NCBI GenBank assembly: GCA_029667085.1
Contig: JARUHJ010000002.1
Location: 124,001-188,000, forward strand
Reading direction: 5' to 3'
DNA length: 64,000 bases
Source of the DNA: Deltaproteobacteria bacterium IMCC39524
Lineage (GTDB): Bacteria; Desulfobacterota; Desulfuromonadia; Desulfuromonadales; BM103
Shown here: one piece after another, positions 19,317 to 47,909 of the stretch
How positions within the stretch are numbered: the first letter of the stretch is position 1
How the letters are laid out: the number at the start of each line of letters is the position of its first letter
Made by a program: the position numbers and the translations under genes
The notes under the pieces: generated by a model
Told to the model about the DNA's origin: nothing
The model's input: only the letters and a program-made list of their open reading frames with translations
Databases searched by the model: none

Positions 19317-19396
19317 GAAACTCCGATAAAGGCAAAGTCAGGGTAACCTGATGACGCAAAGCCACGGGTCCTAATTGAGGATAGCCGAGTTACCAG
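19317..19396 (+). promoter_or_regulatory. GEMM-I (cyclic dinucleotide) riboswitch upstream of c7 cytochrome
   Basis: The class-I GEMM core is present: GATAAAGGCAAAG, a P1b stem capped by a GNRA tetraloop (TCAGG-GTAA-CCTGA), GACGCAAAGCCACGGG, and GATAGCCGAGTTACC. The outer stem AACTC/GAGTT closes it. By hand alignment to the well-known Vibrio Vc2 aptamer, the ligand-contacting position 20 reads G, as in c-di-GMP sensors; confirming c-di-GMP versus cGAMP specificity needs a covariance model. Downstream lie a four-codon open frame with a strong ribosome site and a terminator hairpin, then a triheme cytochrome gene. GEMM switches before cytochrome genes are a known Geobacter theme. Confidence 0.88.
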
Positions 19397-19406
19397 GAGG
19401 CCAATA

Positions 19407-19491: not shown

Positions 19492-19803
19492 ATGCGTAAG
19501 TACAGTTTCTAAATACTATTGACGTTTGTTTCTTTTTTCTGTTGTGCTTTTAGTGAGGAAAACTACAACCATAAATTTAAGACAGAATATCAAACATCTG
19601 CAGGAATCGTAATTTTTGACCATGAAGTCCATTCCATGGATCGCCTGAATGATTGCCATGCATGCCATAGCGCATTGAAAGCTTTTGGTGGTTCTATGAC
19701 TAAACTGTTGGCGCATAGTTATTGTCAAAATTGTCATGAATCCTCAAAAGGGCCAACCGAATGCAACGGTTGCCACCATCAAAAAAAGATAGCAAGTAAA
19801 TAG
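19492..19803 (+). pseudogene. PpcA-like triheme cytochrome c7, interrupted by in-frame TAA in the signal peptide
   Basis: AGGGGGAAT precedes an ATG reading MRKYSF, then TAA, then ILLTFVSFFCCAFSEEN and the mature protein in the same frame. The mature part has three heme sites (CHACH, CQNCH, CNGCH), an IVIFDHEVHS start and a KGPTECNGCHH end, very like the periplasmic c7 cytochromes (PpcA family, about 70 residues). These shuttle electrons between inner- and outer-membrane cytochromes. The stop at codon 7 would abolish export unless it is suppressed or translation restarts at the TTG at 19519, which would give a signal lacking its basic end. A one-base change (for example TTA to TAA) explains it; a sequencing error is also possible. 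Confidence 0.82.
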
Positions 19804-19895: not shown

Positions 19896-20032
19896 ATTAA
19901 TCCTCTCGTATTGATTTGGGTTGCTCAGATTGGCAGAAATGAGAAATTCTTACTGCCCCTGCAATCCAATAAAAAGGCCACCCATTCCCAGGTGGCCATT
20001 ATTCATTATATAAGTCGTGACATATAAGAACA
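19896..20032 (+). repeat. Dispersed accessory repeat, copy 7 (internally shortened)
   Basis: The left half is complete (TCCTCTCGTATTGATTTG, CAGAAATGAGAAATTCTTAC, CCTGCAATCCAATAAAA). The hairpin GGCCACCCATTCCCAGGTGGCC is perfect. The right half lacks its middle (the ATTAAAGAGC to AAGAAGCC part) but ends TATAAGTCGTGACATATAAG. Confidence 0.9.
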
Positions 20033-20106
20033 AAATCAGGTATCGACGACCTTGCTAGACAGCCCCCCTTGACGCCAGAACTACCAAGGTAGATAATTAC
20101 AGTTGT

Positions 20107-20198
20107 AAGGTCTCGATAAAACCAAACTTGCTGAAAAGCAGGGACGGAAAGCGGCGGATCTCACTTCTTAAACACTTCCAGATGGCCGAGCTACCGAA
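20107..20198 (+). promoter_or_regulatory. Second GEMM-I-like riboswitch, variant core
   Basis: The core reads CGATAAAACCAAAC, a P1b stem with GAAA tetraloop (TTGCT-GAAA-AGCAG), GGGACGGAAAGCGGCGG, and GATGGCCGAGCTACC. Outer stem GGT-CTC pairs with GAG-ct-ACC. Relative to Vc2 the 21:46 pair appears changed from G-C to C-G (a covariation), and position 20 reads A. A20 is the change reported to favour cGAMP over c-di-GMP, so this may be a cGAMP switch; that is inference from hand alignment. It controls the exported EFDYSPR-repeat gene 65 bases downstream. Confidence 0.7.
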
Positions 20199-20233
20199 GG
20201 ACAAATTCTAACGGTGCGCTCGGTTTTATTTTT
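20186..20233 (+). terminator. Terminator overlapping the riboswitch 3' strand
   Basis: CCGAG-C-TACCG pairs with CGGTG-CG-CTCGG and runs into TTTTATTTTT. The left arm is also the 3' strand of the aptamer's closing stem, so aptamer folding and termination exclude each other. Ligand binding should therefore turn the downstream gene on. Confidence 0.75.
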
Positions 20234-20262
20234 GATGCGGGCGCAAAGGAAAGGACTCTGCC

Positions 20263-20619
20263 ATGAAAAATCTTGCCAAGGTATTGCTCTTCAGTATTCT
20301 CATCTCTTTGTTTGCCTTAACAACCCCTACAGCAGTTATTGCAGGAGGCTATGGGACAGCTAATGTTTATCTAGAGGATAAAGGCTCAATTGATATTATG
20401 GGAAACGACGGCATTGAGTTTGCCTACTCACCGATGACGGTCAGTAGCGGTCTTGCATCTGCTTCTTCCAAGAATACTAATAGCGAAGTTATTGAGTTTG
20501 ATTACTCACCTAGAAAGAGCAGCAGCATTGGTTCTGTACTCTCGATGAAGAAAGACAGTGAAGACATCGAGTTCGACTACTCACCGAGGCCGGTGAAATG
20601 CGGGACCTCATATTGCTAA
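20263..20619 (+). CDS. Exported protein with three (I)EF(D/A)YSP(R/M) motifs, unknown function
   Basis: The 118-residue protein has a signal peptide (MKNLAKVLLFSILISLFALT, cleavage after VIA near residue 27). The mature 90 residues carry IEFAYSPM (51-58), IEFDYSPR (77-84) and IEFDYSPR (102-109), spaced 25-26 residues apart by Ser/Lys-rich linkers, and end with KCGTSYC. I know no family with this motif. AAGGAAAGGA precedes the ATG. The gene is directly downstream of the second GEMM-like riboswitch, so it is probably controlled by a cyclic dinucleotide. The next unit encodes a TpsB-like transporter. It may be a surface or extracellular structural peptide, or a multi-core precursor; both are guesses. 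Confidence 0.75.
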   Translation: MKNLAKVLLFSILISLFALTTPTAVIAGGYGTANVYLEDKGSIDIMGNDGIEFAYSPMTVSSGLASASSKNTNSEVIEFDYSPRKSSSIGSVLSMKKDSEDIEFDYSPRPVKCGTSYC

Positions 20620-20655
20620 ACAGGGAACATAGGGGCTAGAGGCAGACGTCTTATA

Positions 20656-20770
20656 AGAAGGCCACCAAGGATCGTCCCCTGGTGGACATAGTTTTGTGTA
20701 TTAAACAGCTTCCTGAATGTCTCTATCAATAAGAAGCCGTTTTTCATCTCAGAAGTCGTGACTTTTAACA
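20656..20770 (+). repeat. Dispersed accessory repeat, copy 8 (right half)
   Basis: It contains GGCCACCAAGGATCG...CCCTGGTGG, ATAGTTTTGTGTATTAAAC, ATCAATAAGAAGCCG and AGAAGTCGTGAC. It lies between the EFDYSPR gene and the TpsB-like gene. The left half is absent. Confidence 0.9.
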
Positions 20771-20890
20771 ACTAGGTTGCATTCTATACTTTTTTGGTTA
20801 TATTTTGGGGGTGTTTTTGTTTTCGTAGAGCTCTCTGGCCACTAAGTGAAATTGGTGGCTCCTGAAAATTTTAGTAGAGAGGTAAGTTTT

Positions 20891-22621
20891 ATGCATTTCA
20901 TTGTTATGTGTGGGGTTTTCGCTTCGTTTTTAATCTCTACACAAACTATTGCCGCGCCCTTGCCAAACTCTGGAAGTCTGTATCGCCAAATCAAAGACGA
21001 TTCTTTGCGCGACATTGGCAAAGGTAAAAAGCAACCTGAAACAGAGATCTCAGTTCCAGACCAAATAACCTATGATGATACGCATCAACTGCACGTCAAT
21101 GGTTTTAAGATTGTTGGCAACACGCGTCTGAGTAAAAATGAACTTCATCATGTAATGCAACCCTTTACAAATCGCCTGCTTAACACATCGGCGCTACATG
21201 AAGCGGCCAACACCTTGATGAGATATTATCGAAATCAAGGCTATTTTGCCGCTAAAGTCTACATCCCACCGCACAGTATTCACGAAGGAATCGTCATTTT
21301 ACATGTCTACGAAGGCTATCTGGAAGATGATGGTATAGAACTGGAGAATAGTGGTGATCGCGTCAAAGACGATATCATCACAAAACTTTTAACGAGCACC
21401 CTAAAGCCGGGAATTATCATAAAAGAGGATTATGAACGTGCCATTCTTTTAGCTAACGACCTCCCTGGCATTACTGCAAGGGGGGTCCTGTACCCAGGGC
21501 GTGAGGTTGGTGCTGCAGGATTTTTATTGCAAACTCATGATGAAGATGTCTTTCAGGGCAACTTAGACTATGACAACTTCGGTGATTATTACACTGGCGA
21601 GAACCGTTTTGGGACAACACTGTATTTCAACAGCCCAACTAAAAACGGTGAGGAGTTGGTTTTCAGGTTTGTGACTACTGGCGAATACTCTAATTTTGGT
21701 TATGTTGATCTAGCTGTTCCCGTTTCAGATAATGATATGCGTATCGGCGCATCTTTTGACTATTATAAGTATAAACTTGATCATGAATTTCGCGATGTAG
21801 GCGCTGAGGGTGATGCTTTTAGTGCTCGGGTTTATGTAAAATATCCCTTTGTGCGTACGCGACATAACAACGTTCATGGTGAAGCGAGTTATATCTATAC
21901 CAGGATGACCGATGAGTCAGATGCAGGAGAGTTAGCAGATCGCGTAGTGCATACAGGAGTATTCGGTCTTCACGGAGATCATGATGATGATTTTGTCTCA
22001 AATGGAGTCACCTATTTTGATTCTTCTCTAACGGTTGGCTATCTCGACTTAGATGGCAATGATGGTTATGAAAATTTCGATGACATGACGGCTGAAACAG
22101 CCGGGAGTTTTGCTAAATTAAACGTTTCATTATCAAGGCTACAGCATCTCTATGGAAATCTTTCGTCCAATATTTCTGTTTCAGGCCAAATTGCAAACAA
22201 AAACCTAGACACCTCGCAAAAATTCTATCTTGGGGGCCCTTATAGTGTGGGTGGATATCCAACGGGTCAGGCAGGTGGAGATGATGGAGCGCTGTTAAAT
22301 GCAGATCTGAGGTATGATTTTTATGATCTCCCCTGGAAAGGGAATCTCCAACTCAGCGCCTTCTATGCATATGGCTGGACTAAACTTCACAAGGACCCCT
22401 GGGATGGCTGGGAAGGGAATAACGATTTCATAAAGAATGATATTGTACTTCAATCTGTTGGACTTACTTTGACTCAAACATGGAGCGACACTATGGTGAT
22501 CCGTGCAATGTTGGGGCGACAAATTGGTAATAATGACACGAAATGGCCAGATACTGGTGAAGCCAGAGATCGTTCGGATAGTGACTATCGTTTCTGGATA
22601 AATACGATTTTTTATTTTTAG
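20891..22621 (+). CDS. TpsB/FhaC-type outer-membrane transporter (two-partner secretion)
   Basis: The 576-residue protein has a signal peptide (MHFIVMCGVFASFLISTQTI, cleavage after AA-AP). It has POTRA-like segments (HVNGFKIVGNTRLSKNELHH, near residues 70-230) and a 16-strand-type barrel ending FWINTIFYF. At the conserved L6 tip of Omp85/TpsB barrels, normally VRGY/F, it reads SVGGYPTGQ: the key Arg is Gly. The start was set at the ATG with GAGAGG upstream, not the GTG 15 codons earlier. The next gene starts 9 bases later and encodes a secreted Pro/Thr repeat protein, presumably its cargo, although that protein lacks a recognisable TPS domain. Confidence 0.85.
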   Translation: MHFIVMCGVFASFLISTQTIAAPLPNSGSLYRQIKDDSLRDIGKGKKQPETEISVPDQITYDDTHQLHVNGFKIVGNTRLSKNELHHVMQPFTNRLLNTSALHEAANTLMRYYRNQGYFAAKVYIPPHSIHEGIVILHVYEGYLEDDGIELENSGDRVKDDIITKLLTSTLKPGIIIKEDYERAILLANDLPGITARGVLYPGREVGAAGFLLQTHDEDVFQGNLDYDNFGDYYTGENRFGTTLYFNSPTKNGEELVFRFVTTGEYSNFGYVDLAVPVSDNDMRIGASFDYYKYKLDHEFRDVGAEGDAFSARVYVKYPFVRTRHNNVHGEASYIYTRMTDESDAGELADRVVHTGVFGLHGDHDDDFVSNGVTYFDSSLTVGYLDLDGNDGYENFDDMTAETAGSFAKLNVSLSRLQHLYGNLSSNISVSGQIANKNLDTSQKFYLGGPYSVGGYPTGQAGGDDGALLNADLRYDFYDLPWKGNLQLSAFYAYGWTKLHKDPWDGWEGNNDFIKNDIVLQSVGLTLTQTWSDTMVIRAMLGRQIGNNDTKWPDTGEARDRSDSDYRFWINTIFYF

Positions 22622-22630
22622 GAGCTTGCC

Positions 22631-23728
22631 ATGAGAAAAGTTGCGCCTTTGGCACTATTGCTGTTCTTATTGATGAACAGCATGCTCTTCGCAGGACTTT
22701 GTACGACGGGGAGACACACCGGTAACCCACACTGCCAGAGTCACACCTCAGACAGCGGAAGGGCCCCCAGCGGGACCACGACAGGGATTGGATCTACCGG
22801 AGTAACACCAGACACTTCAACAACCAACCCACACACTGGAACAATTACTCCAGATCATCACAATGCTTACCTTGTTCCGCCTCAACCGATACCAACGCCA
22901 ACAGCAACACCAACGCCGGTGCCGCATCAAGTGCCTCAACCAACACCTGGGAAAATACCGCAGTTGGTTCCATCGCAGGTTGTAACGGGTACGTACGCTA
23001 AAGGGCCTTCAGGCTATGCTCCTGTTCCACCTCAACCGATACCGACGCCAACGGCAACACCAACGCCGGTGCCGCATCAAGTGCCTCAACCAACTCCTGG
23101 GAAAATACCGCAGTTGGTTCCATCGCAGGTTGTAACGGGTACGTATGCTAAAGGGCCTTCAGGCTATGCTCCTGTTCCACCTCAACCGATACCGACGCCA
23201 ACGGCAACACCAACGCCGGTGCCGCATCAAGTGCCCCATCCAACTCCTGGGGCAATACCGCAGTTGGTTCCATCGCAGATTGTAACGGGTACGTATGCTA
23301 AAGGGCCTTCAGGCTATGCTCCTGTTCCACCTCAACCGATACCGACGCCAACAGCAACATCAACGCCGTTACCGCATCAAGTGCCCCATCCAACTCCTGG
23401 GGTAACACCGCAGTTGGTTCCATCGCAGGTTGTAACAGGCATAGTTAGCCCTGGAGCAACCTCACAAGCGTTATTGCCTAAAACACAACCAACGCACTAC
23501 ATCGGAGTCGTGAGCAAAGGCACTCAAATGCCTGTAACCTCTGGAAGGCACATCGTTCAAACGAGTTATGGGTTCAATGTAATCGAGCCTGGCATTCAAA
23601 ATAAGCAAGTAGCCGTATATCGAAGTAATGATGCAAGAGAAATGCTCTACAAAGACACCATCAAAATGGACAATACAGGTTTTTTACTTATAGACTTGGG
23701 CATACGTGATCCGGACTATATTAAATAA
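22631..23728 (+). CDS. Secreted Pro/Thr-rich protein with four 50-residue repeats
   Basis: The 365-residue protein has a signal peptide (MRKVAPLALLLFLLMNSMLF, cleavage after FA). A His/Thr/Gly-rich segment follows, then four tandem repeats of about 50 residues, each with VPPQPIPTPTATPTPVPHQV and ending YAKGPSGYAP (the last incomplete). The C-terminal domain of about 90 residues is globular-looking (GRHIVQTSYGFNVIEPGI, TGFLLIDLGI). The repeats suggest a rigid, possibly glycosylated stalk holding the C-terminal head away from the cell. GGAG precedes the ATG. Overlap in operon position with the TpsB gene implies secretion by it, but the usual TpsA features (about 250-residue TPS domain, beta-helix) are missing. 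Confidence 0.75.
   Translation: MRKVAPLALLLFLLMNSMLFAGLCTTGRHTGNPHCQSHTSDSGRAPSGTTTGIGSTGVTPDTSTTNPHTGTITPDHHNAYLVPPQPIPTPTATPTPVPHQVPQPTPGKIPQLVPSQVVTGTYAKGPSGYAPVPPQPIPTPTATPTPVPHQVPQPTPGKIPQLVPSQVVTGTYAKGPSGYAPVPPQPIPTPTATPTPVPHQVPHPTPGAIPQLVPSQIVTGTYAKGPSGYAPVPPQPIPTPTATSTPLPHQVPHPTPGVTPQLVPSQVVTGIVSPGATSQALLPKTQPTHYIGVVSKGTQMPVTSGRHIVQTSYGFNVIEPGIQNKQVAVYRSNDAREMLYKDTIKMDNTGFLLIDLGIRDPDYIK
22874..23443 (+). repeat. Tandem 150-bp coding repeats (about 3.8 copies)
   Basis: The period is 150 bases: 22874-23023, 23024-23173, 23174-23323 and 23324 onward. Copies 1-3 are nearly identical at DNA level, including synonymous sites; copy 4 is diverged and merges into the C-terminal domain. This indicates recent expansion and a likely length polymorphism. 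Confidence 0.92.
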
Positions 23729-23888: not shown

Positions 23889-24058
23889 CTATAATTCCTC
23901 CTGCATTGCTGTAAGTCACGCAGTTTGACCGAAAAAAATATTCTCACGAACCCTGTCCTACGAGCAAGGGCACCAAGGGTCAAATCCTGATGGCCATCAT
24001 TTGTTGTATTAAAGAGCTCCATGAGTACCCCTCAATCGGGGAAAAAGCCATGGCCGTG
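23889..24058 (+). repeat. Dispersed accessory repeat, copy 9 (diverged, complete order)
   Basis: It carries TAATTCCTCCTGCATTG, ATATTCTCACGAACCCTG, GGCACCAAGGGTCAAATCCTGATGGCC and TGTATTAAAGAGCTCC in the family order. It is the most degraded and last copy, coinciding with the end of the accessory region; beyond it gene style returns to that of the backbone. Confidence 0.7.
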
Positions 24059-34392: not shown

Positions 34393-35424
34393 TTATTTTA
34401 TAGTCAACATCCCCGGATGATCCCCGACAACCCGACCAATATGGATCGCATTACAGCCAGCCGCCTCAAGTTGAACCTTAAGCTGCGATAACTTGTCTTC
34501 CGCTACACAGATCATCAGGCCGCCAGAGGTCTGCGGATCGGCGAGAATGTCCACGATCACAGGAGCGACCCGTTCACGATTGACCACGCTTGGCATATAA
34601 TGCTCTCGATTACGATAACTGCCGACCGGCACCAGGCCGATTTCAGCAAGATCTATAACTTGGGGATAAACGTGCAAAGCAGAGGCTTCGATTTCGAGGC
34701 CGACCTGGCTGGCGTCTGCCAACTCCTGAGCGTGACCGAGTAAGCCGAAGCCGGTAATGTCGGTGCAGGCATTTACACCCACCTTGAGCATGACTTCCGA
34801 AGCCGCGCGGTTCAAGGTCTCCATGCCTTGAATGGCCTCTTTCATCTGCTCTTCCTTGATGACCTCGCCTTTTAATGCTGTTGCCAGAATACCGACTCCG
34901 AGAGGTTTGGTCAGCACTAGAACGTCTCCAGCTTTTGCTCCGGCCGTGGTAATCAGGTTCTTCGGATCAACCAGGCCGGTTACGGCCAGCCCGAATTTCG
35001 GCTCGTCATCCTCAACAGTGTGGCCGCCGACAACAATCGCTCCGGCTTCGTGCACCTTCTCTGCTCCCCCTTTAAGGATTTCGACCAGGACGTCCTCTTC
35101 AAGGCAGGCCGGGAAACCGACCAGGTTCAGCACCGTGAGAGGCTTTCCGCCCATGGCATAGATGTCGGAGAGGGCATTGGCCGCAGCAATGCGCCCAAAA
35201 ATGCGCGGATCGTCGACGATCGGGGTGAAGAAGTCGACCGATTGCACCAGGGCACAGTCCGGCGCGATTTGATAAACACCTGCATCCGCAAAGGGAATCG
35301 ACGCGGTGAGGAAGTTCTTGTCTTCAACCGTTGGTAGCTGGCGCAGCACCTGCGCCAATGGCCCGGGGGCCATCTTGGCGGCTCAACCGCTGGTTTTGGA
35401 CAGGTGAGACAGTTTTACGCTCAT
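34393..35424 (-). CDS. selD: Selenide, water dikinase; itself a selenoprotein (Sec at codon 14)
   Basis: The enzyme makes selenophosphate from selenide and ATP, the Se donor for Sec-tRNA. Reading from the ATG at 35424 gives MSVKLSHLSKTSG, then TGA (35383-35385), then AAKMAPGPLAQVL and a full-length 343-residue SelD. The TGA sits exactly at the catalytic Cys/Sec of the family's GC/U-AAK motif. Just after it, CCA-AG-ATGGCC...GGCCAT-TGG can form a bulged stem with apical loop CCCG, a fitting bacterial SECIS. Glycine-rich and Asp motifs (VVGGHTVEDDE, DITGFGLLGHAQELA) are intact. GGAG precedes the ATG. A start at the internal ATG would delete the active site. Confidence 0.93.
35355..35385 (-). promoter_or_regulatory. 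Candidate bSECIS element in selD
   Basis: The stem CCA/TGG plus ATGGCC/GGCCAT, with an AG bulge and loop CCCG, is centred about 18 bases after the Sec TGA. This spacing fits SelB-bound bacterial SECIS hairpins. Confidence 0.65.
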
Positions 35425-35435
35425 TGTGTTCGCTC

Positions 35436-35513
35436 CAAACTTGGGACGAGGGACGTGGTCCGCGGGACGAGAAAAGCTTTCCGCGCTCCGCGTACCTCGT
35501 ACCGCGTTCCGTT
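35436..35513. repeat. GGGACGAGGGACG-type intergenic repeat
   Basis: Degenerate G(G/A)GACGAG(A/G) and CGCGTACCTCGTACC units form an imperfect inverted repeat between selB and selD. A related fragment (GGTGCGTGGGGCGCGGTCCG) lies at about 32384. Confidence 0.55.
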
Positions 35514-37422
35514 ATTTAGGTAATTGCCAGGCGACGCGTTCGTCACCTTTACGCATAGTGTACTTGAGGCTATCGAAGAGTTCCAGAATTGCCTGGGTTT
35601 GTTTGCGGGCGCTGCCGATCAGGTCGCGGAACTCGCCCAGGGTCAGGGTCTCTTTTGAACCGAAATGATTGACCAGAGAGGTGAGCGCTTTCTGGTAGGC
35701 CGCCTTGTGCAGGAATGAATCATCGTTGAGGCGAATCAGGACGCCGTTGGCAAAAAGGAACGCGAGTAATGATTCCACCTGTGTATCGGGAACTCCTGCC
35801 AGAGCCAGCATATCGACGCGGCCTTTGGCCTCAACGCCGGCATCCAGGTAAACTTTTTCAAGCTTTTGTAACAGCTGCTCCTGCTTTTCGGTCGGCTGAG
35901 CGGTAAAGTCGATTCTTGCAACCCACTCTCCGCGTTGTACCAGTTGCGACTCATCAACGAGTTCGCCAAGGAGTTGTTCAAAAGCTTTCGGCGCAACCTT
36001 CGCAGGCAACGCAGATTTGAGGGTTGCGTGCGGAATGCCGGGTTGCAGAGCATTGTCCCGGTGATAGTTGTCAACCGCGTCCAGAAGGGTGCGTTGCCAG
36101 GCCCGTGCGGTTTCCATGGTCACCCATTGGTCACCGATCCTGGTGACTTGCGAGGCTTCGGTGAGGCTTTCCAGGAGAGCTGTAATCTTCTCCCTGCCCA
36201 AGCCCGAGGCCTGTTCCAGTTCCTTTAGCTTGACACAACCGAGCTCGGCAAGTTTCTGGACAATAAAAGAACCCTCTCCCGATTCCAGCTCTTTCAGGGC
36301 GTGCATCACCCCATCACGGAAGCGTTTATGTTTCACCGGTGTGGGGTCGATGATCTGGCCGCCGCCGATCGTCGCCATCGGTGAGTAGGAACGAACGATG
36401 AAGCGATCCTGGCGATGGGCGACCAGGGGGCTGTCGAGATGAAATTGAGCGAGCACGCTTTCGCCCTGCTGCATTTCGTCGCGATCAAGCAGCGCCACGC
36501 GGGCGGTGACCTTGGCGGTTCCCATATGCAGATGAACGGGGTCGCGAAACTTGAGTGGGCGCGGTGCTTCTTTGAGCAGATTGAGCCGGGCATCGAAACG
36601 CTCGGTCATGGTAAAGAATCCGGGGGTTGCCACCACGGCACCTCGGGTCAGGTTGCTGCGTTCCAGTCCAGCAAGGTTGAGTGCCACACGCTGACCGGCT
36701 CTGGCCACCTCTGCTTTTTCACCGTGAACCTGAACCTCACGGACCCTGACGGTTTCGCCGGGCGGCATGACTTCAACCGTGTCGCCGACCTTGATTTTTC
36801 CTGAGAGGAGCGTACCGGTGACCACCGTACCGAAGCCGCTGATCGTGAAATGCCGATCGATCGGCAGGCGCGTCGGACCCTCTTCATCGCGCGGTGGCAA
36901 CTCTTTGAGAATCTCCTGAATCGTCTGTCGAAGCTCTTCAAGCCCCAGTCCCTGCAGCGCGGACACCCGGCAACAAGGTGCTTTTTCCAGAAAGGTTCCG
37001 GCGAGAGTCTCGCGAACCTCTTCTTCGACGATGTCGATCCAGTCTTCTTCCGCAAGGTCACACTTGGTCAGCACCAGGATGCCGCGTGGGATCTGCAGCA
37101 GTTGCAAAATCTGCAGATGCTCGCGGGTCTGCTGCATGACCCCTTCATTAACATCGACGACCAGCAGGACCAGGTCGATGCCGCCGATTCCGGAGAGCAT
37201 GTTGTGGATGAATTTCTCGTGACCGGGAACGTCAACGACCCCGGCCATGCTGCCATCTGCCAGTTTGAAGGGTGCGAAGCCGAGATCGATGGAGATGCCA
37301 CGTTCCTGCTCTTCTTTCAGGCGGTCGGTATTGATGCCGGTGAGCTTATTGATCAGGACCGTCTTGCCGTGGTCAACGTGACCGGCCGTGCCGATGATGT
37401 GGTAGCGGGTTGAGTCGTTCAT
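35512..37422 (-). CDS. selB: Selenocysteine-specific elongation factor
   Basis: The 636-residue protein has the G domain GTAGHVDHGKTVLINKLTGI (residues 11-30), GISIDLGFA (switch), VDVPGHEKFIHNM and LTKCDLAEED. These are followed by two EF-Tu-like beta-barrel domains (RHFTISGFGTVVTGTLLSG) and four C-terminal winged helices, the last ending KGDERVAWQLPK. It carries Sec-tRNA to the ribosome at UGA codons followed by a SECIS hairpin. Its two visible clients in this window are selD and the AhpD-like gene. It sits between selA and selD on the same strand. Confidence 0.95.
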   Translation of the reverse strand: MNDSTRYHIIGTAGHVDHGKTVLINKLTGINTDRLKEEQERGISIDLGFAPFKLADGSMAGVVDVPGHEKFIHNMLSGIGGIDLVLLVVDVNEGVMQQTREHLQILQLLQIPRGILVLTKCDLAEEDWIDIVEEEVRETLAGTFLEKAPCCRVSALQGLGLEELRQTIQEILKELPPRDEEGPTRLPIDRHFTISGFGTVVTGTLLSGKIKVGDTVEVMPPGETVRVREVQVHGEKAEVARAGQRVALNLAGLERSNLTRGAVVATPGFFTMTERFDARLNLLKEAPRPLKFRDPVHLHMGTAKVTARVALLDRDEMQQGESVLAQFHLDSPLVAHRQDRFIVRSYSPMATIGGGQIIDPTPVKHKRFRDGVMHALKELESGEGSFIVQKLAELGCVKLKELEQASGLGREKITALLESLTEASQVTRIGDQWVTMETARAWQRTLLDAVDNYHRDNALQPGIPHATLKSALPAKVAPKAFEQLLGELVDESQLVQRGEWVARIDFTAQPTEKQEQLLQKLEKVYLDAGVEAKGRVDMLALAGVPDTQVESLLAFLFANGVLIRLNDDSFLHKAAYQKALTSLVNHFGSKETLTLGEFRDLIGSARKQTQAILELFDSLKYTMRKGDERVAWQLPK

Positions 37423-37467
37423 AAGTAGTCTGTCCGTATCAATTGTTTCTGGGGCTGTAATAAGTCA

Positions 37468-37543
37468 TTCAACGCGGAGGTGCGGTGACGCAGAGGGAAA
37501 CTTCAGGTAAAGGTTTTCAGCGTCACCGCGCCTCCGTGTTGAA
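37468..37543. repeat. Near-perfect 24-bp inverted repeat between selA and selB
   Basis: TTCAACGCGGAGGTGCGG and the mirrored CCGCGCCTCCGTGTTGAA form arms of about 24 bases with two mismatches and a 27-base loop. It is an intergenic repeat unit; it may stabilise or attenuate the selA-selB message. Confidence 0.8.
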
Positions 37544-37551
37544 TAATATCA

Positions 37552-38952
37552 TCAACAGAAAATCTGCTTCAGGGCCTTCAAAAGCAAGGCTTCATCCTCC
37601 TGGTTCAGGGTCCGGGGGTCGATCAGGAACCGATCGTCCTGAATGCGCCCGATAACAGCCGGCTCACAACTGCGTAATCGCGTTGTCAGCTCATTGAGAG
37701 AGATTTGCTTTGGCGCCAGAGCGATGACGCATCCGGGCAGCTCGGCAAGAGGCAGCGCGCCGCCACCCACGGTTGCCGTTGTTTCGATGATGCCACAGTC
37801 TGCTTTGTCGCCAAGATGAGTCAAGAGATGGGGCAGGAGGTTTTCGCAGCGGTACTGCAACTCCTCGACCGGCAATGACAGCATTCTCAAGGTGGGGATT
37901 TGCTGCAAAGCTTTCCGGGGATCAAGATAAAGCCTGAGGGTCGCTTCGAGGGCCGCCAGGCTCAGCTTGTCACTCCTCAGGGCGCGGGCCATGGGGTGCT
38001 TGCGGACCTTGTCGATAACGTCTTTATTGCCGACGATGATCCCTGCCTGGGGTCCTCCGAGCAGCTTGTCGCCGCTGAAGGTGACCAGGTCGATGCCGGT
38101 TCCCAGTGCTTCCCGTACCGTTGGCTCGCGTGGCAGTCCATAAGGGGTCAGGTCCATCAACAGGCCGCTACCGAGATCTTCGAGGACCGGAATGTTTTGT
38201 TGATGAGCAAGTTCAGCCAGCTCTTCGCCGCTGACCGCTTCGGTGAAGCCCAGGATCCGGTAGTTGCTGGTGTGGACCTTGAGAATAAGCGCCGTCTCTT
38301 TGTTGATGGCGTCAGCGTAATCCTTGAGATGAGTCTTGTTGGTGGTGCCCACTTCAACCAGTTCGACACCACTGGCCGCCATAATGTCCGGGATACGGAA
38401 AGAGCCGCCGATCTCGATCAGCTCGCCACGTGAGACGATGGCACTCTTGCCACCGGACAGGGCTGCCAGGGCGAGCATGACCGCGCCGGCGTTGTTGTTG
38501 ACCACCGTCGCTGCTTCGCCACCGGTCAGCTTGCAGATCAGTTCTTCAACATGGGTGAAGCGTTTGCCGCGTTGGCCTGCATCGAGATCATACTCAAGGT
38601 TGGAATACCCCTGGGCAACCTCTTTGATTGCCTGCAGCGCTTCGTTGCAGAGCGGCGCCCGACCGAGGTTGGTGTGCAGAAGCGTGCCGGTAACATTGAT
38701 GACCTTGCGTAAAGAGGGCTTGGCCATCAACGCGACCCGAACGGCGACCCGTTCGGCAACGGCCTCAATGTCCAGGTCGGGCAGGGGGGCCTTTTGGTCA
38801 AGAAGCTGTTGGCGCAGGTCGTCGACAACCTGCTGGGCGGCCTCAAGAATCAGAAGGTGGGGTTGAGTTTCCTCAAGCTTGGAGAGGATTCTGGACCCCA
38901 GCAGCCTATCGATTGCAGGCAGAGTGCGCAAGAGTGCGCGGCGATCAGGCAT
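37552..38952 (-). CDS. selA: L-seryl-tRNA(Sec) selenium transferase
   Basis: The 466-residue PLP enzyme converts Ser-tRNA(Sec) to Sec-tRNA(Sec) using selenophosphate. Recognisable parts are the N-terminal helical tRNA-binding region, INVTGTLLHTNLGRAPL, NNNAGAVMLALAALS, EVGTTNKTHLKDY and the PLP-lysine loop TFSGDKLLGGPQAGIIVG. GGAGGTGA lies before the ATG. It follows the AhpD-like selenoprotein gene after 45 bases and heads the selA-selB-selD series. Confidence 0.96.
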   Translation of the reverse strand: MPDRRALLRTLPAIDRLLGSRILSKLEETQPHLLILEAAQQVVDDLRQQLLDQKAPLPDLDIEAVAERVAVRVALMAKPSLRKVINVTGTLLHTNLGRAPLCNEALQAIKEVAQGYSNLEYDLDAGQRGKRFTHVEELICKLTGGEAATVVNNNAGAVMLALAALSGGKSAIVSRGELIEIGGSFRIPDIMAASGVELVEVGTTNKTHLKDYADAINKETALILKVHTSNYRILGFTEAVSGEELAELAHQQNIPVLEDLGSGLLMDLTPYGLPREPTVREALGTGIDLVTFSGDKLLGGPQAGIIVGNKDVIDKVRKHPMARALRSDKLSLAALEATLRLYLDPRKALQQIPTLRMLSLPVEELQYRCENLLPHLLTHLGDKADCGIIETTATVGGGALPLAELPGCVIALAPKQISLNELTTRLRSCEPAVIGRIQDDRFLIDPRTLNQEDEALLLKALKQIFC

Positions 38953-39270: not shown

Positions 39271-39803
39271 TATTTCATGACCTTTTGATGCGTCATCTGT
39301 TGGTTATGTTTCCCTGTAGTTTGTGTAACAAATTGCGTTCCAACTTTCAACTAATATTCACAAAAGTGATTGACGAAGTCCCTCTGCCGTAAGGATGGGG
39401 CAAGGTGGTGATGACCTGTGCAAACTGGGCCTGATGATTGCATCAACGTGGTCACAGCAATATTCTGGGGTACTTTTAAGCCTTTTCAAGGTCAAGGATG
39501 ATTAAATGGAGGACATGGCGCTCCTTTGAGGGCATGAGTTCAGCGGAGCACCCTATACTTAGAGGGACAATAATGGTCTTTTCACTGTTGCTAAACTGTG
39601 ATATTTTACCGCGTTATTGTGCCCTTTGCAGGGAAAGGGCGTAAATTGTTCTTTGGGGGAAGACGCTTCTTATCGCTTTGATGCTAAAGCGAAACAAACA
39701 TCTATCCTGTGTGAATCCTCCTTTTACCTTTCATTACATCGAAAAGCTGACGTTTATGATTTGGAACTGCAAGGAAATTTTTCTGATTGCAAGGAGCAGG
39801 GTT
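39271..39803. other. 530-bp divergent gap between the sel operon and the secretion locus
   Basis: There is no convincing gene. It must hold the promoters of both operons. Candidate -10-like ACCCTATACTTAG lies near 39550 on the plus strand; no operator or riboswitch is recognised. In-frame codons exist upstream of the TolC-like gene's GTG start, but they lack a ribosome site. Confidence 0.5.
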
Positions 39804-42800
39804 GTGCTTGCTAGTCTCAGGTGGTGTGTTTGCTGTTCACTCCTTTTGACTCTGCAATTTGTTGCGTCTTCATTTGTTTCGACCTCTGCTGCCGAAGTGC
39901 AGTTGGGCACCGATGATTCGACATCATCAACCCGTGCATCTTCGAGTCGGTCTGAGTCTTTCGTCAGTCCCCTCACGACACCAACGGGGATTGTGATGGG
40001 TTTTGTCCTGGGGGTGGGTGAGCTTCCGGAGTTTTCAAAAGATTTGGAGGCCGTTGGTTTTTATCTGCAAGAGCAGTTATCCCTGCCGGTCAAGATGCGT
40101 ACTTTTGGAAGCGATGACCAGCTATACAACTGGTTGTCGCGTTTTAGAGAGGTTGATGTCGCCTGGCTCAGTGAGGATTTCCTCAAGAGTCTCCCTGTCG
40201 GAGACGTTTCCTCTCTGGCTCAAAGCCCAAGGCCTTCTGGTCTTTTCCCCTCGGGAGAGCTCGTCGCTCACCCCGGCTTTGATGGTGAACTCCGTCAACG
40301 GATCAGTGATGTCTTTTTGAGTATGGATCAAACATCTTCGGGGCGGGAGTTGTTGGCTCGACTTGAAATTGAACATTTTGTTGCGTCATCTCAAAGAATG
40401 CCCTCGAAGGTGGCAGAGGCGGTTGTGCCGGCGGGAGAGCCTGGTTCCCCCCTTGATGAAGTCAAAGGCATACCGATGTCGGTGTTTGTTGCCGGTCGCG
40501 CAACGCAGACCGGGCGCACGCCAGAATCTCGAGTCCTCGAGTCCGAGGACGACGTGGAGCTTAATGCTCTGGTTCGCTCCCCTGCTGCAGAAGATTTTGT
40601 CGAGCCTTTAGAGCCAGCGAGCTCTTCAAGAGCACCCGACGTGTTAATTGCTTCTCCCCCATCTCGGGACACCATTGATTCCGAACGTGTCTCGATCGGT
40701 TTTATTGTGGATGATTGCGATAATTTATCGCCATCAAAAAATATGCAGAAATTCAGTTTCTACCTGCAAGAACACCTCTCAATCCCCGTTCAGGTGCGCA
40801 ACTTTTGCACGGAAGATCAGTTATATGACTGGTTAATTCGTTTCAGAGAGGTTGATGCTGCCTGGTTCAGCAAGCAATTCCTCGATGAACTCCCCGTTGG
40901 AGAAATTTTTTCCCTAGCAGAGAATCCAAGTCCTTCTTCAGTGTTTCCTTACGGAGAACTCGTCGCTCGTCCAGGGGTTGAAGATGATCTTCGCAAGCAG
41001 ATAAGTGGTGCTCTGCTGAGCATGGAGCAAACCGCCCCGGGGCGCCAGTTGTTGGCCGAGCTTGAGGTCAGTCGTTTTGTTCCACCACCTCATCGGCAAC
41101 CGTCTCCAGAGCGAAAAGAGACCGTGCAGCGGGACGATTCTGGCGACTATCTCGCGATAAGCGACAATGCATCGCACCTCTCGGAATCGAAGAGTTCTGA
41201 CGTTTCACCGCCACTTTTGTCCAGTCCTGTTCCTGCATTGGCAGAAACCCCGTCGATGCCGGTGACTTCTGCTGGGCAAGCAGAGCAGGTTGTCAGCAGA
41301 CCAAAAGCTCAATCAGTTGAGCTTTTGGAGCAAGAAAAACTTGCACCAGCAAACTCCAGTTCAAAGGCGTCTTCACCACTTCGAAAGACTGATGGGGCCG
41401 GGCAGGTTTTGATCGGTTTTGTCGCCGATGATGGTGCTCTGGTTCAATCTTCAAAAGCCGAGGAGAAAATCGGTCGTTATCTTCAAGCCCAGCTGTCCGT
41501 ACCTATCAAGATGCGCAGCTTCGATACGGAAGCTCAGCTGTATAGCTGGTTGACTCGATTCAGGGAAGTCGACGCGGCATGGCTCAGTAAAACATTCCTC
41601 GATAAACTACCTGTTGGTGAAGTCTTTCGTCTGGCTCAAAGCTCAAGTCCTTCATCGGCTTTGCCTTACGGCGAGTTGGCTGCCCATCCAGGTGCGGATG
41701 GTGAACTCAGGAAACGGATAGGCGCTGCTCTGCTGGGTATGGAGCGAACCTCTGCTGGTCGCGAGCTTTTGGCTGAGCTTGAAATCAGTCGTTTTGTGTC
41801 GTCATCTCAAAAAGAGGCCTCTTCAGAAATGGAGGAACTGGCGCCGCTCGGTGAAACAGAGCCCGCTCGTGCGGTGAATACCGATAAATCGCAGGCCTCA
41901 GAACAGAATGAACCCGAGGCTGCCCCGGCAGTTTTGCTCAATGCCGTTCCTGCTTCGGTTGAAACCCCGTCGGTGCCGGTGGCCGGTGCCGGTCAAACAG
42001 CTCAGGATCTCCGCACACAAGAATCTGTATTCGTCGAGCCTGAGAATGTTGAAAAGACTGCTGATCTGGAAGTACCTACTGTTCGAGAAGACTCTGGCGA
42101 GTCTTCAGCTCCAAAAGATTCTTCTCAATCAAGCACTATCCCAGAGATCTCTTCTTCAGCACAAAGTGTTGAAGACTCCAGGCCGGTTGCAGATGGTTTG
42201 AATGTGCCGGGGGAGCGAAGCTTGGCGGGGTTGGTTGGTCGGTCTGAAATTTCAGTCCTCGCAGACGCCGAAGGGCAGTTTGTGAAAAGCATGGCGATCA
42301 ATCAAGTGTTGGAAGATGAATTCGCCAACCAGGTCGGAGAAACAGACCTTCAGGAGTCGATCAGCGCCGGTCGAAGTTTTAGTCGCGAAAGTCTTGCTGC
42401 TTTGGCGCGTGTTGAACAGGCGGAAGCGCAAACCGGGCAGGCTCTCGCCCAAATGCTGCCTTCCGTTACACTTCGGGCAAATCGTGGTTATGAGACCTCT
42501 GAGCCTTCCGTTGTCGTGGATGAAACAACCGGGGAACTTATCGACTCTGATAAGCACATTCGGACTGATACTGCGCTTACCATTCGTCAGCCTTTGTTTG
42601 ATCTTCCCATCTTTCTGGATTGGCAACGTCGCAAGGTCAAAGAACAGGCTCGCGACGAGGGTTATCGGGGCAATGACGGCGATGCCTATCTCTCCACTGT
42701 CAGCTCCTACCTTTCTCTGGTCTCCAGTCGTTTGCAGGCTGATGTGACGCGCGACTTTGAAAAACAGCTTGACGAGCTACTGACCTATATCGAAAAAAGA

Positions 42801-43607
42801 TCCGAAGCTGGAGCAGCCAGCGTTTCTGACATGACCCGTGTACTCGCGCGCAGTCAGGCGACTGTGTCCTCCCGATTGGAGCTTGAGTCTGCCCATGCTG
42901 CGGCGGGGTCTGAATTTGTTCGGCTGACCAACCTTGTCCCTGAGAAGGTTCGGCTCCCGGTCGTTGAGGACGTTGGCGCCTCGTTGCTGCCGGAATCCTT
43001 TGATGAAGCTGTTGCTGTTGCTATGAAACACAACCCTGATATTGCTGCGCTCACCGCTGAACTTGAGGCTGCAAAAATTGACCAGCACTCAGCAAAGGGC
43101 CGCTATCTGCCCCGTGTTGACGCCGAGTACACGGACACCTATTCCCGTGGCGCAGGTGGTGCTCCCAGTGAAGACGACCAGAGAGACAAGCGCCTCATGC
43201 TGGTGTTGAACTGGGAGCTTTTCAGCGGCGGAAACGACTACAATTTTCATCTTGAAAAAGTAGCGCGACACAAAGAGTTGCAGTACCGTCTGGACGATCA
43301 GCGTCGTAGCGTTGTGCAAGCCCTTTCAGCCAATTATGCTGCTCTTACATCAACGAGGGATCGGATTAAGTCCGGGTACCAGGAGTTGGAGTCGATCTCC
43401 ATTGCGTCAGAAGCCATGTCAAAAAGGATGCTTTCCGGAAACCAGTCTCTACTGGATCTTCTGGATGTCTACAACCAGCACTACCAGGTTCGTGCCCGCT
43501 TGGTCAGCTTGCATACTCTTGAGATGAACACGGTGGCGCAGTTGGCTCGACTGACACTCGGCACTCCGTGGGCGAAGTCTGAAAGAAGGTCTTCTCAGGG
43601 TGAATGA
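39804..43607 (+). CDS. TolC-like outer-membrane channel with three N-terminal repeated modules
   Basis: The 1,267-residue protein is about three times a normal TolC. The start is the GTG with AAGGAG 7 bases upstream, giving a signal peptide (LASLRWCVCCSLLLTLQFVA). Three modules of about 135 residues (about 62-197, 294-430, 533-669) share IGF(V/I), YLQxQLSxPxxxR(T/N/S)F, LxRFREVD(V/A)AW(L/F)S, LP(V)GE(V/I) and GRxLLAxLE(I/V)xxFV. These are joined by Ser/Pro/Glu-rich linkers. The pattern resembles part of PhnD-type periplasmic binding proteins. Residues about 850-1265 are an outer-membrane efflux protein domain (SRESLAALARVEQAEAQTGQ to LARLTLGTPW). It is first in the adhesin secretion operon, the SiiC/LapE position. 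Confidence 0.85.
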   Translation: MLASLRWCVCCSLLLTLQFVASSFVSTSAAEVQLGTDDSTSSTRASSSRSESFVSPLTTPTGIVMGFVLGVGELPEFSKDLEAVGFYLQEQLSLPVKMRTFGSDDQLYNWLSRFREVDVAWLSEDFLKSLPVGDVSSLAQSPRPSGLFPSGELVAHPGFDGELRQRISDVFLSMDQTSSGRELLARLEIEHFVASSQRMPSKVAEAVVPAGEPGSPLDEVKGIPMSVFVAGRATQTGRTPESRVLESEDDVELNALVRSPAAEDFVEPLEPASSSRAPDVLIASPPSRDTIDSERVSIGFIVDDCDNLSPSKNMQKFSFYLQEHLSIPVQVRNFCTEDQLYDWLIRFREVDAAWFSKQFLDELPVGEIFSLAENPSPSSVFPYGELVARPGVEDDLRKQISGALLSMEQTAPGRQLLAELEVSRFVPPPHRQPSPERKETVQRDDSGDYLAISDNASHLSESKSSDVSPPLLSSPVPALAETPSMPVTSAGQAEQVVSRPKAQSVELLEQEKLAPANSSSKASSPLRKTDGAGQVLIGFVADDGALVQSSKAEEKIGRYLQAQLSVPIKMRSFDTEAQLYSWLTRFREVDAAWLSKTFLDKLPVGEVFRLAQSSSPSSALPYGELAAHPGADGELRKRIGAALLGMERTSAGRELLAELEISRFVSSSQKEASSEMEELAPLGETEPARAVNTDKSQASEQNEPEAAPAVLLNAVPASVETPSVPVAGAGQTAQDLRTQESVFVEPENVEKTADLEVPTVREDSGESSAPKDSSQSSTIPEISSSAQSVEDSRPVADGLNVPGERSLAGLVGRSEISVLADAEGQFVKSMAINQVLEDEFANQVGETDLQESISAGRSFSRESLAALARVEQAEAQTGQALAQMLPSVTLRANRGYETSEPSVVVDETTGELIDSDKHIRTDTALTIRQPLFDLPIFLDWQRRKVKEQARDEGYRGNDGDAYLSTVSSYLSLVSSRLQADVTRDFEKQLDELLTYIEKRSEAGAASVSDMTRVLARSQATVSSRLELESAHAAAGSEFVRLTNLVPEKVRLPVVEDVGASLLPESFDEAVAVAMKHNPDIAALTAELEAAKIDQHSAKGRYLPRVDAEYTDTYSRGAGGAPSEDDQRDKRLMLVLNWELFSGGNDYNFHLEKVARHKELQYRLDDQRRSVVQALSANYAALTSTRDRIKSGYQELESISIASEAMSKRMLSGNQSLLDLLDVYNQHYQVRARLVSLHTLEMNTVAQLARLTLGTPWAKSERRSSQGE

Positions 43608-43777
43608 AACCAACTTTAACTGATATCAAAGTCTTTTGTGTAAAGGTTCTAACAGTTAACCTCGTTCGTCACTTTGTCGCGCAAAGCAAAATAACATCGG
43701 CGCCACTTGGAGATAGCTGCAGTTGAAACAATGGGTTAAGTGAAACTCAAGTGCGTAACTAAGGGTGGATAATCAAT

Positions 43778-44461
43778 ATGGCATCACGTCATGAAGATAA
43801 CGATGGCTCAGATATTTTCTGGCCCGGCTATGTAGACGCTACGACCAACCTGATCCTTAACCTCCTCTTCCTCTTGACGATTTTGATGGTCGCTGTCTTC
43901 ATGTTTGCTCTCGAACTAGGGCGTTCCAGCCCGACTAAACCAGAAAATCCACCGGTGGTTTCTCCCCTAGAGGATCCGGAAGCTATTCCTTCGGGCACAA
44001 CTGACCCAGTTCAGGAAAATATTGCGTTAAGGCGTGAAGTTCTGCGTTTGAAAATGGAGCTTGCAAAGAAGGTCCCAGAGTCTGCTCAAGCAGGTGGTGT
44101 CGTTGAAACTGTGGAGGGTACCTCCCCTTTGGCGATACCGCAGAATGGCCTGGATAAGACCTTGGCTAGTGAGACAGAAATTATTGTACGGTTCATGGGA
44201 GAGTCCATTGAATTTATGCCTGCAGAACACGACCGCTTGCTCGAGGTATTGAAGCCCATTGCCGAAGCAGGGAAGGCAAGTATTACCGTTGAAGTCCCCG
44301 CGGGCTTTTCAGAAGCTAAGCGTATGGGGTTCTATAGAGCGATGTCGGTGCGAAATTTACTGATTGAAATGGAACTTCTCCAGGAAAACATTGATGTTTC
44401 GGTGGTTGAAGGAAACAACAAGGCCAACGCCTCAATCGTCAGGGTCAGGCCGCGTCAATAA
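43778..44461 (+). CDS. MotB/SiiA-like membrane protein with OmpA-like periplasmic domain
   Basis: The 227-residue protein starts with a short cytoplasmic segment, then GYVDATTNLILNLLFLLTIL. This is one TM helix with an Asp at its beginning (Asp19), the position of the proton-binding Asp in MotB, TolR and ExbD. A Pro-rich linker, a coiled segment (ENIALRREVLRLKMELAKKV) and an OmpA/MotB-like C-terminal fold (VRFMGESIEFMPAEHDRLLE, ...RAMSVRNLLIEMEL) follow. In SPI-4, SiiA plays this role beside SiiB. The HlyD-like gene starts 5 bases after its stop. The pairing with the downstream MotA-like gene makes a proton channel likely. Confidence 0.8.
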   Translation: MASRHEDNDGSDIFWPGYVDATTNLILNLLFLLTILMVAVFMFALELGRSSPTKPENPPVVSPLEDPEAIPSGTTDPVQENIALRREVLRLKMELAKKVPESAQAGGVVETVEGTSPLAIPQNGLDKTLASETEIIVRFMGESIEFMPAEHDRLLEVLKPIAEAGKASITVEVPAGFSEAKRMGFYRAMSVRNLLIEMELLQENIDVSVVEGNNKANASIVRVRPRQ

Positions 44462-44466
44462 GACTT

Positions 44467-45765
44467 ATGCAACTTTCCATATTTCATAAGGTACGTAAAG
44501 CCTTTGCTGACTTGTCGCCCCGGGTCGCCTTTGTCTTGCTGTTGCTGTTTAGCAGTATCGGTTTATTCGTGTGGGCTGGAATTGCAGAAGTCGATGTTAT
44601 TGTGCGCACTGAGGGACAGATCATTCCAGCCGGAAAATCGCAAATTGTGCAACATCTTGAAGGCGGGATTGTTCGTAAAATTCTGGTGAAGGAAGGTCAG
44701 GTCGTTGTTGCCGGAGAACCTTTGATAGAGTTAGCCGATGTACAGACCCGCTCAGACCTGGGGCAGGAACAGTCCATGCTTGATGCCTTGCGTGGCCGTG
44801 AAGCCCGTTTGATGGCTGAGTTAAATGGGACAGACACGATTACCTTCCCCGACACGCTGAATGACCCCAATGTGATCCGTTCGGAGACCGCTGCCTGGCA
44901 GGCGCGTCGTGCTCAACTTGACGAAGAGGTTCAGGTCTTGCAGGCGTTAAGTCTGCAAAAGAAGAGCGAGTTGGCGGAAATAAATTCGAAAAGAGAGAAC
45001 CTTCTTGAAGAGTTGAAATTGGCGATGAAAAAGCATCAGGTTATTGATGACCTGAGAAAAAACAACGCTGCCTCTGAACTGGAAGTTCTTGAAAGCCAGA
45101 TCCGCATACAAAAGCTCAATTCGCAAATAGATGAAGCCATAAATGCTGCTCCGCGCTTACGGGCTGCCCAGTCAGAAGCCGAATCGCGGGTAAAAGAAGC
45201 CGTTGCCCGTTTTCAGGCGGAAGCGTCTTCGGCATTGACTGAAGTGCGTGAGGATCTTGAAAAACTAAGTCATGAGATTGGTACCAGCGTCGACCGACTC
45301 GACAGGAATGTCGTCAGGAGCCCGGTTGCGGGTTTTATTAATAAATTGAATATCTCGACCATTGGCGCCGTCGTACGTCCTAGCGAAATATTGTTGGAAA
45401 TTACGCCTAGCGATGAACGCTTTGTCATTCAGACCCGATCAAATCCAAACGATCGCGCCCATCTCCGCCGTGGCTTGCCGGCGCGAGTGCGCATTGGAGC
45501 CTATGATTACGCAACCTATGGCACCTTTGAAGGTCATGTGACCGAGGTCAGCTCCGATACTCTGGTCGATGAGAGAGACAATCACTATTACCGTGTGAAT
45601 ATAGAGGTCGATGTGTCGACGATCATGTCACGTGCCCGCCAGCCGGGTGTGCTGATGCCTGGCATGGCTGCAAGCGTTGATATTGCCGTTGGTAAACGAA
45701 CGGTTCTGTCGTACATCCTTTCTCCTTTGTTGAAGTTTCGTGATGGGGCGTTTCGTGCCAATTAA
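44467..45765 (+). CDS. HlyD-family membrane fusion protein (type I secretion adaptor)
   Basis: The 432-residue protein has an N-terminal TM (VAFVLLLLFSSIGLFVWAGI) followed by IVRTEGQIIPAGKSQIVQHL and EGGIVRKILVKEGQVVVAGE, the biotinyl-lipoyl-like half-motif typical of HlyD/PrtE adaptors. A long alpha-hairpin (about residues 100-270) and the second half-motif VVRSPVAGFINKLNIST come next, then a beta-barrel domain ending VDIAVGKRTVLSYILSPLLK. It bridges an inner-membrane ABC transporter to TolC, so an ATPase partner is required somewhere. It corresponds to SiiD/LapC. Confidence 0.93.
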   Translation: MQLSIFHKVRKAFADLSPRVAFVLLLLFSSIGLFVWAGIAEVDVIVRTEGQIIPAGKSQIVQHLEGGIVRKILVKEGQVVVAGEPLIELADVQTRSDLGQEQSMLDALRGREARLMAELNGTDTITFPDTLNDPNVIRSETAAWQARRAQLDEEVQVLQALSLQKKSELAEINSKRENLLEELKLAMKKHQVIDDLRKNNAASELEVLESQIRIQKLNSQIDEAINAAPRLRAAQSEAESRVKEAVARFQAEASSALTEVREDLEKLSHEIGTSVDRLDRNVVRSPVAGFINKLNISTIGAVVRPSEILLEITPSDERFVIQTRSNPNDRAHLRRGLPARVRIGAYDYATYGTFEGHVTEVSSDTLVDERDNHYYRVNIEVDVSTIMSRARQPGVLMPGMAASVDIAVGKRTVLSYILSPLLKFRDGAFRAN

Positions 45766-47802: not shown

Positions 47803-47909
47803 AAAATGATTCTGGTGCCACTGTAACGTGGCGTCAGCTCTTCACAGTTGGCCAGGTTGTCCCGTGCCTGATTGTGGAATATCGGTAGAAATAGAAAATG
47901 GGAGTTGTT

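Follow-up and report, generated by a model that had tools for sequence, protein, structure and literature searches.

The gene at 20263..20619 (+ strand) in a 64,000-nucleotide stretch of DNA from a Geobacter-like bacterium (the whole analysed stretch, hereafter the window) encodes an exported repeat protein of 118 aa, and our preferred reading, tentative at a probability of roughly 0.45, is that this product may be a protein of the cell surface or matrix, flexible and multivalent, that belongs to a cGAMP regulon. A known type of regulation governs the gene; its product is an orphan, with a role that lies beyond the reach of sequence reading, and on present evidence the locus does not represent a new kind of system. 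What is known of cGAMP regulons in relatives of Geobacter concerns mostly cytochromes, pili, and polysaccharide, and this gene offers a clean and small test case, with one promoter, one switch, and one orphan exported product that bears a selected motif.

The open reading frame starts with ATG and is preceded by a ribosome-binding site (AGGAAAGGA, 20247..20255, + strand) that ends 7 nt 5′ of this codon, and frame 0 has the highest coding score among the six frames of the region. The product begins with a predicted Sec signal peptide (aa 1-27, reading MKNLAKVLLFSILISLFALTTPTAVIA|GG), which was called by eye from the MKNLAK start, a hydrophobic core, and the VIA|GG junction. Its removal would leave a mature chain of 91 aa that is acidic (pI 4.5), contains 19% Ser, and carries at its C-terminus the sequence CGTSYC (20599..20616, + strand), in which C113 and C118 may form a disulfide. 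No CXXCH heme motif occurs within the 118 aa, and an AlphaFold model built without an alignment gave no usable fold (mean pLDDT 42.7); this low-confidence model places strands at residues 93-97 and 102-106, in the third repeat unit. The initial annotation had described a small exported protein with two C-terminal Cys, which agrees with both the signal peptide, clear by eye, and the Cys pair, and we infer an extracellular location for the product.

Three copies of an octapeptide, IEFAYSPM at aa 51 (20413..20436), IEFDYSPR at aa 77 (20491..20514), and IEFDYSPR at aa 102 (20566..20589), all on the + strand, recur in the translated sequence with a spacing of 26 and then 25 residues, as the earlier description of near-identical octapeptides 25-26 residues apart had stated. 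When the mature sequence was shuffled 1000 times, three copies occurred in 0 shuffles, two in 6, and one in 994. Copies 2 and 3 differ in five of their eight codons, every difference being synonymous, and the simulated probability that the peptide remains intact after five random nucleotide changes is 0.00016, which argues that the peptide, rather than the DNA, is conserved. This synonymous-only divergence is the best evidence, as far as sequence goes, for a real gene and for the motif as the conserved unit, and it lends weight to the original idea of modular cores in that the motif appears to be a selected module. The linkers between the motifs (TVSSGLASASSKNTNSEV and KSSSIGSVLSMKKDSED) bear merely a general resemblance to each other, the residues flanking the motif differ in all three copies and include no conserved cleavage residues, and the residue following SPR or SPM is T, K, or P.

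That this gene answers to a cyclic-dinucleotide switch had been proposed, and its leader indeed contains an aptamer, a promoter, and a terminator, all on the + strand. The predicted promoter (TTGACG-17-GATAAT, 20069..20097) agrees with 10 of 12 consensus positions, and transcription is expected to start near position 20104, immediately 5′ of a GEMM-I aptamer (20112..20199). This aptamer matches Rfam RF03167 with 61.7 bits (E 3.9e-12), above the gathering score of 59 and hence within the family, and upon alignment to the model it shows a GEMM-Ib (cGAMP) signature, namely A20, C-G rather than G-C at positions 21-46, and A47 (Vc2 numbering). Since an A20G change converts GEMM-Ib selectivity from cGAMP to c-di-GMP (PMC6456294), the A at position 20 favours cGAMP over c-di-GMP as the ligand that the aptamer would sense, with the C21-G46 pair as a caveat to this assignment. 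The intrinsic terminator obtained by folding (20184..20233, with its U-tract at 20224-20233; -22.1 kcal/mol, z -1.9) uses the 3′ strand of the aptamer (GCCGAGCUACCG) as its 5′ arm, so that a ligand-stabilised aptamer would exclude the terminator; from this terminator-type platform we infer a transcriptional ON switch. The same block of promoter, aptamer, terminator, and ribosome-binding site also heads two unrelated exported proteins in the genome (L105 and L095) at approximately 79-82% identity, with the -35 region, GATAAT, the terminator stem, the U-tract, and the GGAAAGG of the ribosome-binding site retained in both paralogous leaders, which suggests a reused control cassette.

A second GEMM-I aptamer (19322..19398, + strand; RF03168, 67.3 bits) sits 790 nt upstream of the A20 aptamer, is of the G20, c-di-GMP-like type, and serves an upstream c7 cytochrome unit. 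The c7-type triheme cytochrome of this unit (19492-19803) has an in-frame TAA (19510-19512) within its signal peptide, and an intact paralogue behind the same GEMM leader is present in L110 (93% identity over 822 bp).

Across the genome, 39 GEMM-I matches were found, and among the 37 scored at position 20, A20 occurs in 16 and G20 in 21. Exported or membrane products were assigned to 14 of the 16 A20 genes and 8 of the 21 G20 genes (Fisher P 0.003), under a simple signal-peptide or membrane-segment rule that is crude and missed at least one likely signal peptide in each group. The A20-type GEMMs of this genome are linked to exported proteins, many of them without a family. Three GGDEF proteins (L185, L186, and L190) carry GHxxGS or GYxxGS instead of GHxxGD, and we take their Ser to be the equivalent of the Hypr Ser (GacA S347). 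This Hypr-like Ser makes a cGAMP pathway likely in the genome, GacA with its residue S347 being a cGAMP-making Hypr enzyme; the GEMM-Ib genes of Geobacter are turned on by cGAMP and include genes for extracellular proteins (PMC6456294).

Outside its own genome, the full 118-aa protein returned noise alone when searched against 98 related genomes (E ≥ 0.02), and it had no match in genome_contigs. A repeat profile applied over the family, order, and class (22, 136, and 277 genomes, respectively) recovered this gene as the sole find, the weak matches in other genomes having the look of chance (of two that were read, L146 is an unrelated frame and L151 an RlmN-like protein). A scan of all species for the spaced-motif pattern, which required GAG for the first Glu and could miss relatives with GAA, hit a single contig (L153). 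The hit falls within repeated DNA there, and the motif is encoded by none of the listed ORFs. Searches of viral_contigs, plasmids, phages, and PDB gave nothing, and a literature text search for EFDYSPR retrieved no paper. There is also no family match for the protein in Pfam and NCBIfam, which, together with the empty genome searches, upholds the previous statement that it belongs to no known family. Several other GEMM-driven genes of the genome have orthologues in the same-genus genome G005 (e.g., L091/L090), so that the absence of the present gene from G005 is probably real rather than an effect of thin genus data. The gene just cited (L091 735-1181 and L090 706-1380, minus strand) encodes a GEMM-driven exported repeat protein, Gly-rich and then (E[QH]MQG)n, whose G005 orthologue has a longer repeat array.

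Downstream of the gene lies tpsB, which encodes an outer-membrane transporter of the ShlB/FhaC type (20891..22621, + strand; Pfam POTRA_2 9.1e-15, ShlB 1.2e-17); its longest frame starts at 20846 and its likely ATG at 20891, 271 bp from the gene. Next to it, an orphan exported Pro/Thr-rich protein of 365 aa with 50-aa repeats is encoded at 22631..23728 (+ strand), with no family in Pfam or NCBIfam. The initial annotation had placed the gene near an outer-membrane secretion pair, of which the TpsB half holds, as it adjoins the gene; the presumed partner at 22631-23728 lacks a TPS domain (PF05860) in Pfam, as does the 20263-20619 product, and without a TpsA the pair is only half right. In G005 (L125), an A20 GEMM lies directly 5′ of tpsB-tpsA, and the TpsA there has a TPS domain (3.3e-42), the two TpsB proteins being only 30% identical. 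The Pro/Thr-rich gene itself contains a 150-bp tandem repeat (3.8 copies, 95% matches), and a search of the order for its protein gave no clear relatives and weak matches only, those that were read being apparently unrelated genes or antisense frames.

Between the gene and tpsB lies a dispersed intergenic hairpin repeat of 119 bp (20653..20771, + strand). This repeat (GGCCACCAAGGATCG..CCCTGGTGGCCATAGTTTTGTG...AAGTCGTGAC, roughly 120 bp) occurs at least 41 times in the genome, in both orientations, with related pieces in the window at 19896-20030 and 23963-24032; G005 has it as well. It is dense on contigs C11, C12, and C13 and at the end of C3, and GEMM aptamers cluster in these same places. 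An integron attC site was considered for it and set aside, as inspection by eye revealed no attC core ends and the copies occur in both orientations. Farther along the window, a reading by eye picked out selD-, selB-, and selA-like genes in a row (34393-38952), apparently selenocysteine machinery, so that this genome may decode TGA as Sec; genes resembling type I secretion parts (39678-45765); and, downstream of the latter, a frame of 4943 aa (47898-62729) that contains long repeats and, at its C-terminus, repeats of calcium-binding appearance, a giant adhesin candidate.

In the mechanism that we propose, the gene would be placed within a cGAMP regulon and would stand alone, so far, in an orphan family of exported repeat proteins. 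Rising 3′,3′-cGAMP would bind the nascent GEMM-Ib aptamer of the leader, and the bound aptamer would withhold its 3′ strand from the terminator, allowing polymerase to read through and the precursor to be made. The precursor would then pass Sec and shed its 27 residues, yielding an acidic, Ser-rich, flexible chain with three short amphipathic IEF(D/A)YSP stretches, variable linkers, and the Cys pair at the end. These repeats may provide multivalent, low-affinity binding at the cell surface or in the matrix, with minerals, polysaccharide, or partner proteins in extracellular electron transfer as possible targets, by analogy with PgcA. A surface-binding role appears the most likely one for the protein, comparison lending it no support since no homologue was found. 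It strikes us as unlikely that IEF(D/A)YSP is a new modular unit of binding or self-assembly, serving electron transfer or the matrix, through which a heme-free, cGAMP-induced protein tethers cells, cytochromes, or minerals via three strand motifs.

Other explanations account for part of the same evidence. The protein could be a self-assembling, functional-amyloid-like matrix protein, in which 25-residue strand-turn-strand units stack as in CsgA and FapC and the Cys pair closes the end. The alternation of hydrophobic and polar residues in IEFDYSP would suit such stacking, as would the two strands of the weak model in the third unit, and FapC has three imperfect repeats plus a C-terminal Cys, a layout that the present protein resembles. 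However, the repeats are acidic and Ser-rich rather than Gln/Asn-rich, neither Pfam nor NCBIfam gives a match, the confidence of the model is very low, and none of the neighbouring genes could be recognised as encoding a chaperone or pore for such a system; we regard this assembly as improbable. Near-identical cores set between variable linkers, with conservation limited to the core, would also fit a peptide precursor, the three motifs being released or modified after export to give a signal peptide, a pheromone, or a modified peptide. Processing at the motif, which had been raised as one meaning of the regular spacing, is nevertheless unlikely as a general rule, given the T, K, or P after SPR or SPM, the missing Arg in copy 1, and the R-P of copy 3, which is a poor site. 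Together with unconserved flanks, and with neither a peptidase nor a modifying enzyme, of the radical-SAM or another type, recognised within approximately 5 kb (ORFs and family scans), this leaves a precursor role very unlikely.

The surroundings of the gene bear on two further explanations. As tpsB follows the gene in the same orientation, and as an A20 GEMM directly precedes tpsB-tpsA in the same-genus G005 (L125), the protein might serve the neighbouring TpsB as cargo or as a helper, with one riboswitch governing the production of both. We consider this quite doubtful, because the TPS domain is absent from both candidate products, the hairpin repeat occupies part of the interval before the tpsB ATG, and the G005 transporter is so distant in sequence. 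Alternatively, a repeat-rich accessory region that shuffles riboswitch leaders and genes may have given rise to a young, species-specific gene with little present function. The failure of every search to find a relative, the stop codon already present in the adjoining c7 cytochrome unit, the duplicated leader, and the dispersed repeats are all in keeping with such an origin, whereas the five synonymous and zero non-synonymous changes between motif copies 2 and 3, along with an intact promoter, switch, and ribosome-binding site, speak against it and reduce its chances to a small one.

Compared with known systems, the flexible, multivalent surface or matrix protein that we favour has several partial counterparts. 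Like CsgA and FapC, it is small, is exported through Sec, and contains short imperfect repeats, but it lacks Gln/Asn-rich repeats and a family match, and dedicated export genes were not seen nearby. With two-partner secretion (FhaC/ShlB plus TpsA), the locus shares an adjacent TpsB and, in G005, the GEMM-tpsB-tpsA arrangement, but no PF05860 protein is adjacent here. The surface proteins CD2831 and CD3246 of Clostridioides difficile, which are under a c-di-GMP riboswitch (PMC11477304), are a case of exported adhesive proteins switched on by a cyclic-dinucleotide riboswitch, although theirs is a class II c-di-GMP switch in a Gram-positive host and the proteins have known domains. PgcA (GSU1761) of Geobacter sulfurreducens, a GEMM-Ib-controlled, repeat-rich extracellular cytochrome with reported Fe(III) oxide binding (PMC5732950), resembles the present protein in cGAMP-riboswitch control, Sec export, and repeated low-complexity Ser/Thr-Pro segments, whereas the latter has neither heme motif nor lipobox, measures only 91 aa when mature, and is unrelated in sequence, with a different repeat. 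The Geobacter GEMM-Ib (3′,3′-cGAMP) regulon (Kellenberger 2015 and Nelson 2015, as cited in PMC6456294) is matched in the GEMM-I fold with A20, the terminator-based ON platform, the many copies per genome, the extracellular proteins served, and the Hypr-like GGDEF (GHxxGS) of the same genome. The present case differs from that regulon in having C21-G46 instead of G21-C46, in a ligand that is predicted from sequence, and in serving an orphan instead of genes for cytochromes, pili, or polysaccharide; should the motif prove to bind minerals or matrix, a heme-free protein would join the cGAMP-controlled components.
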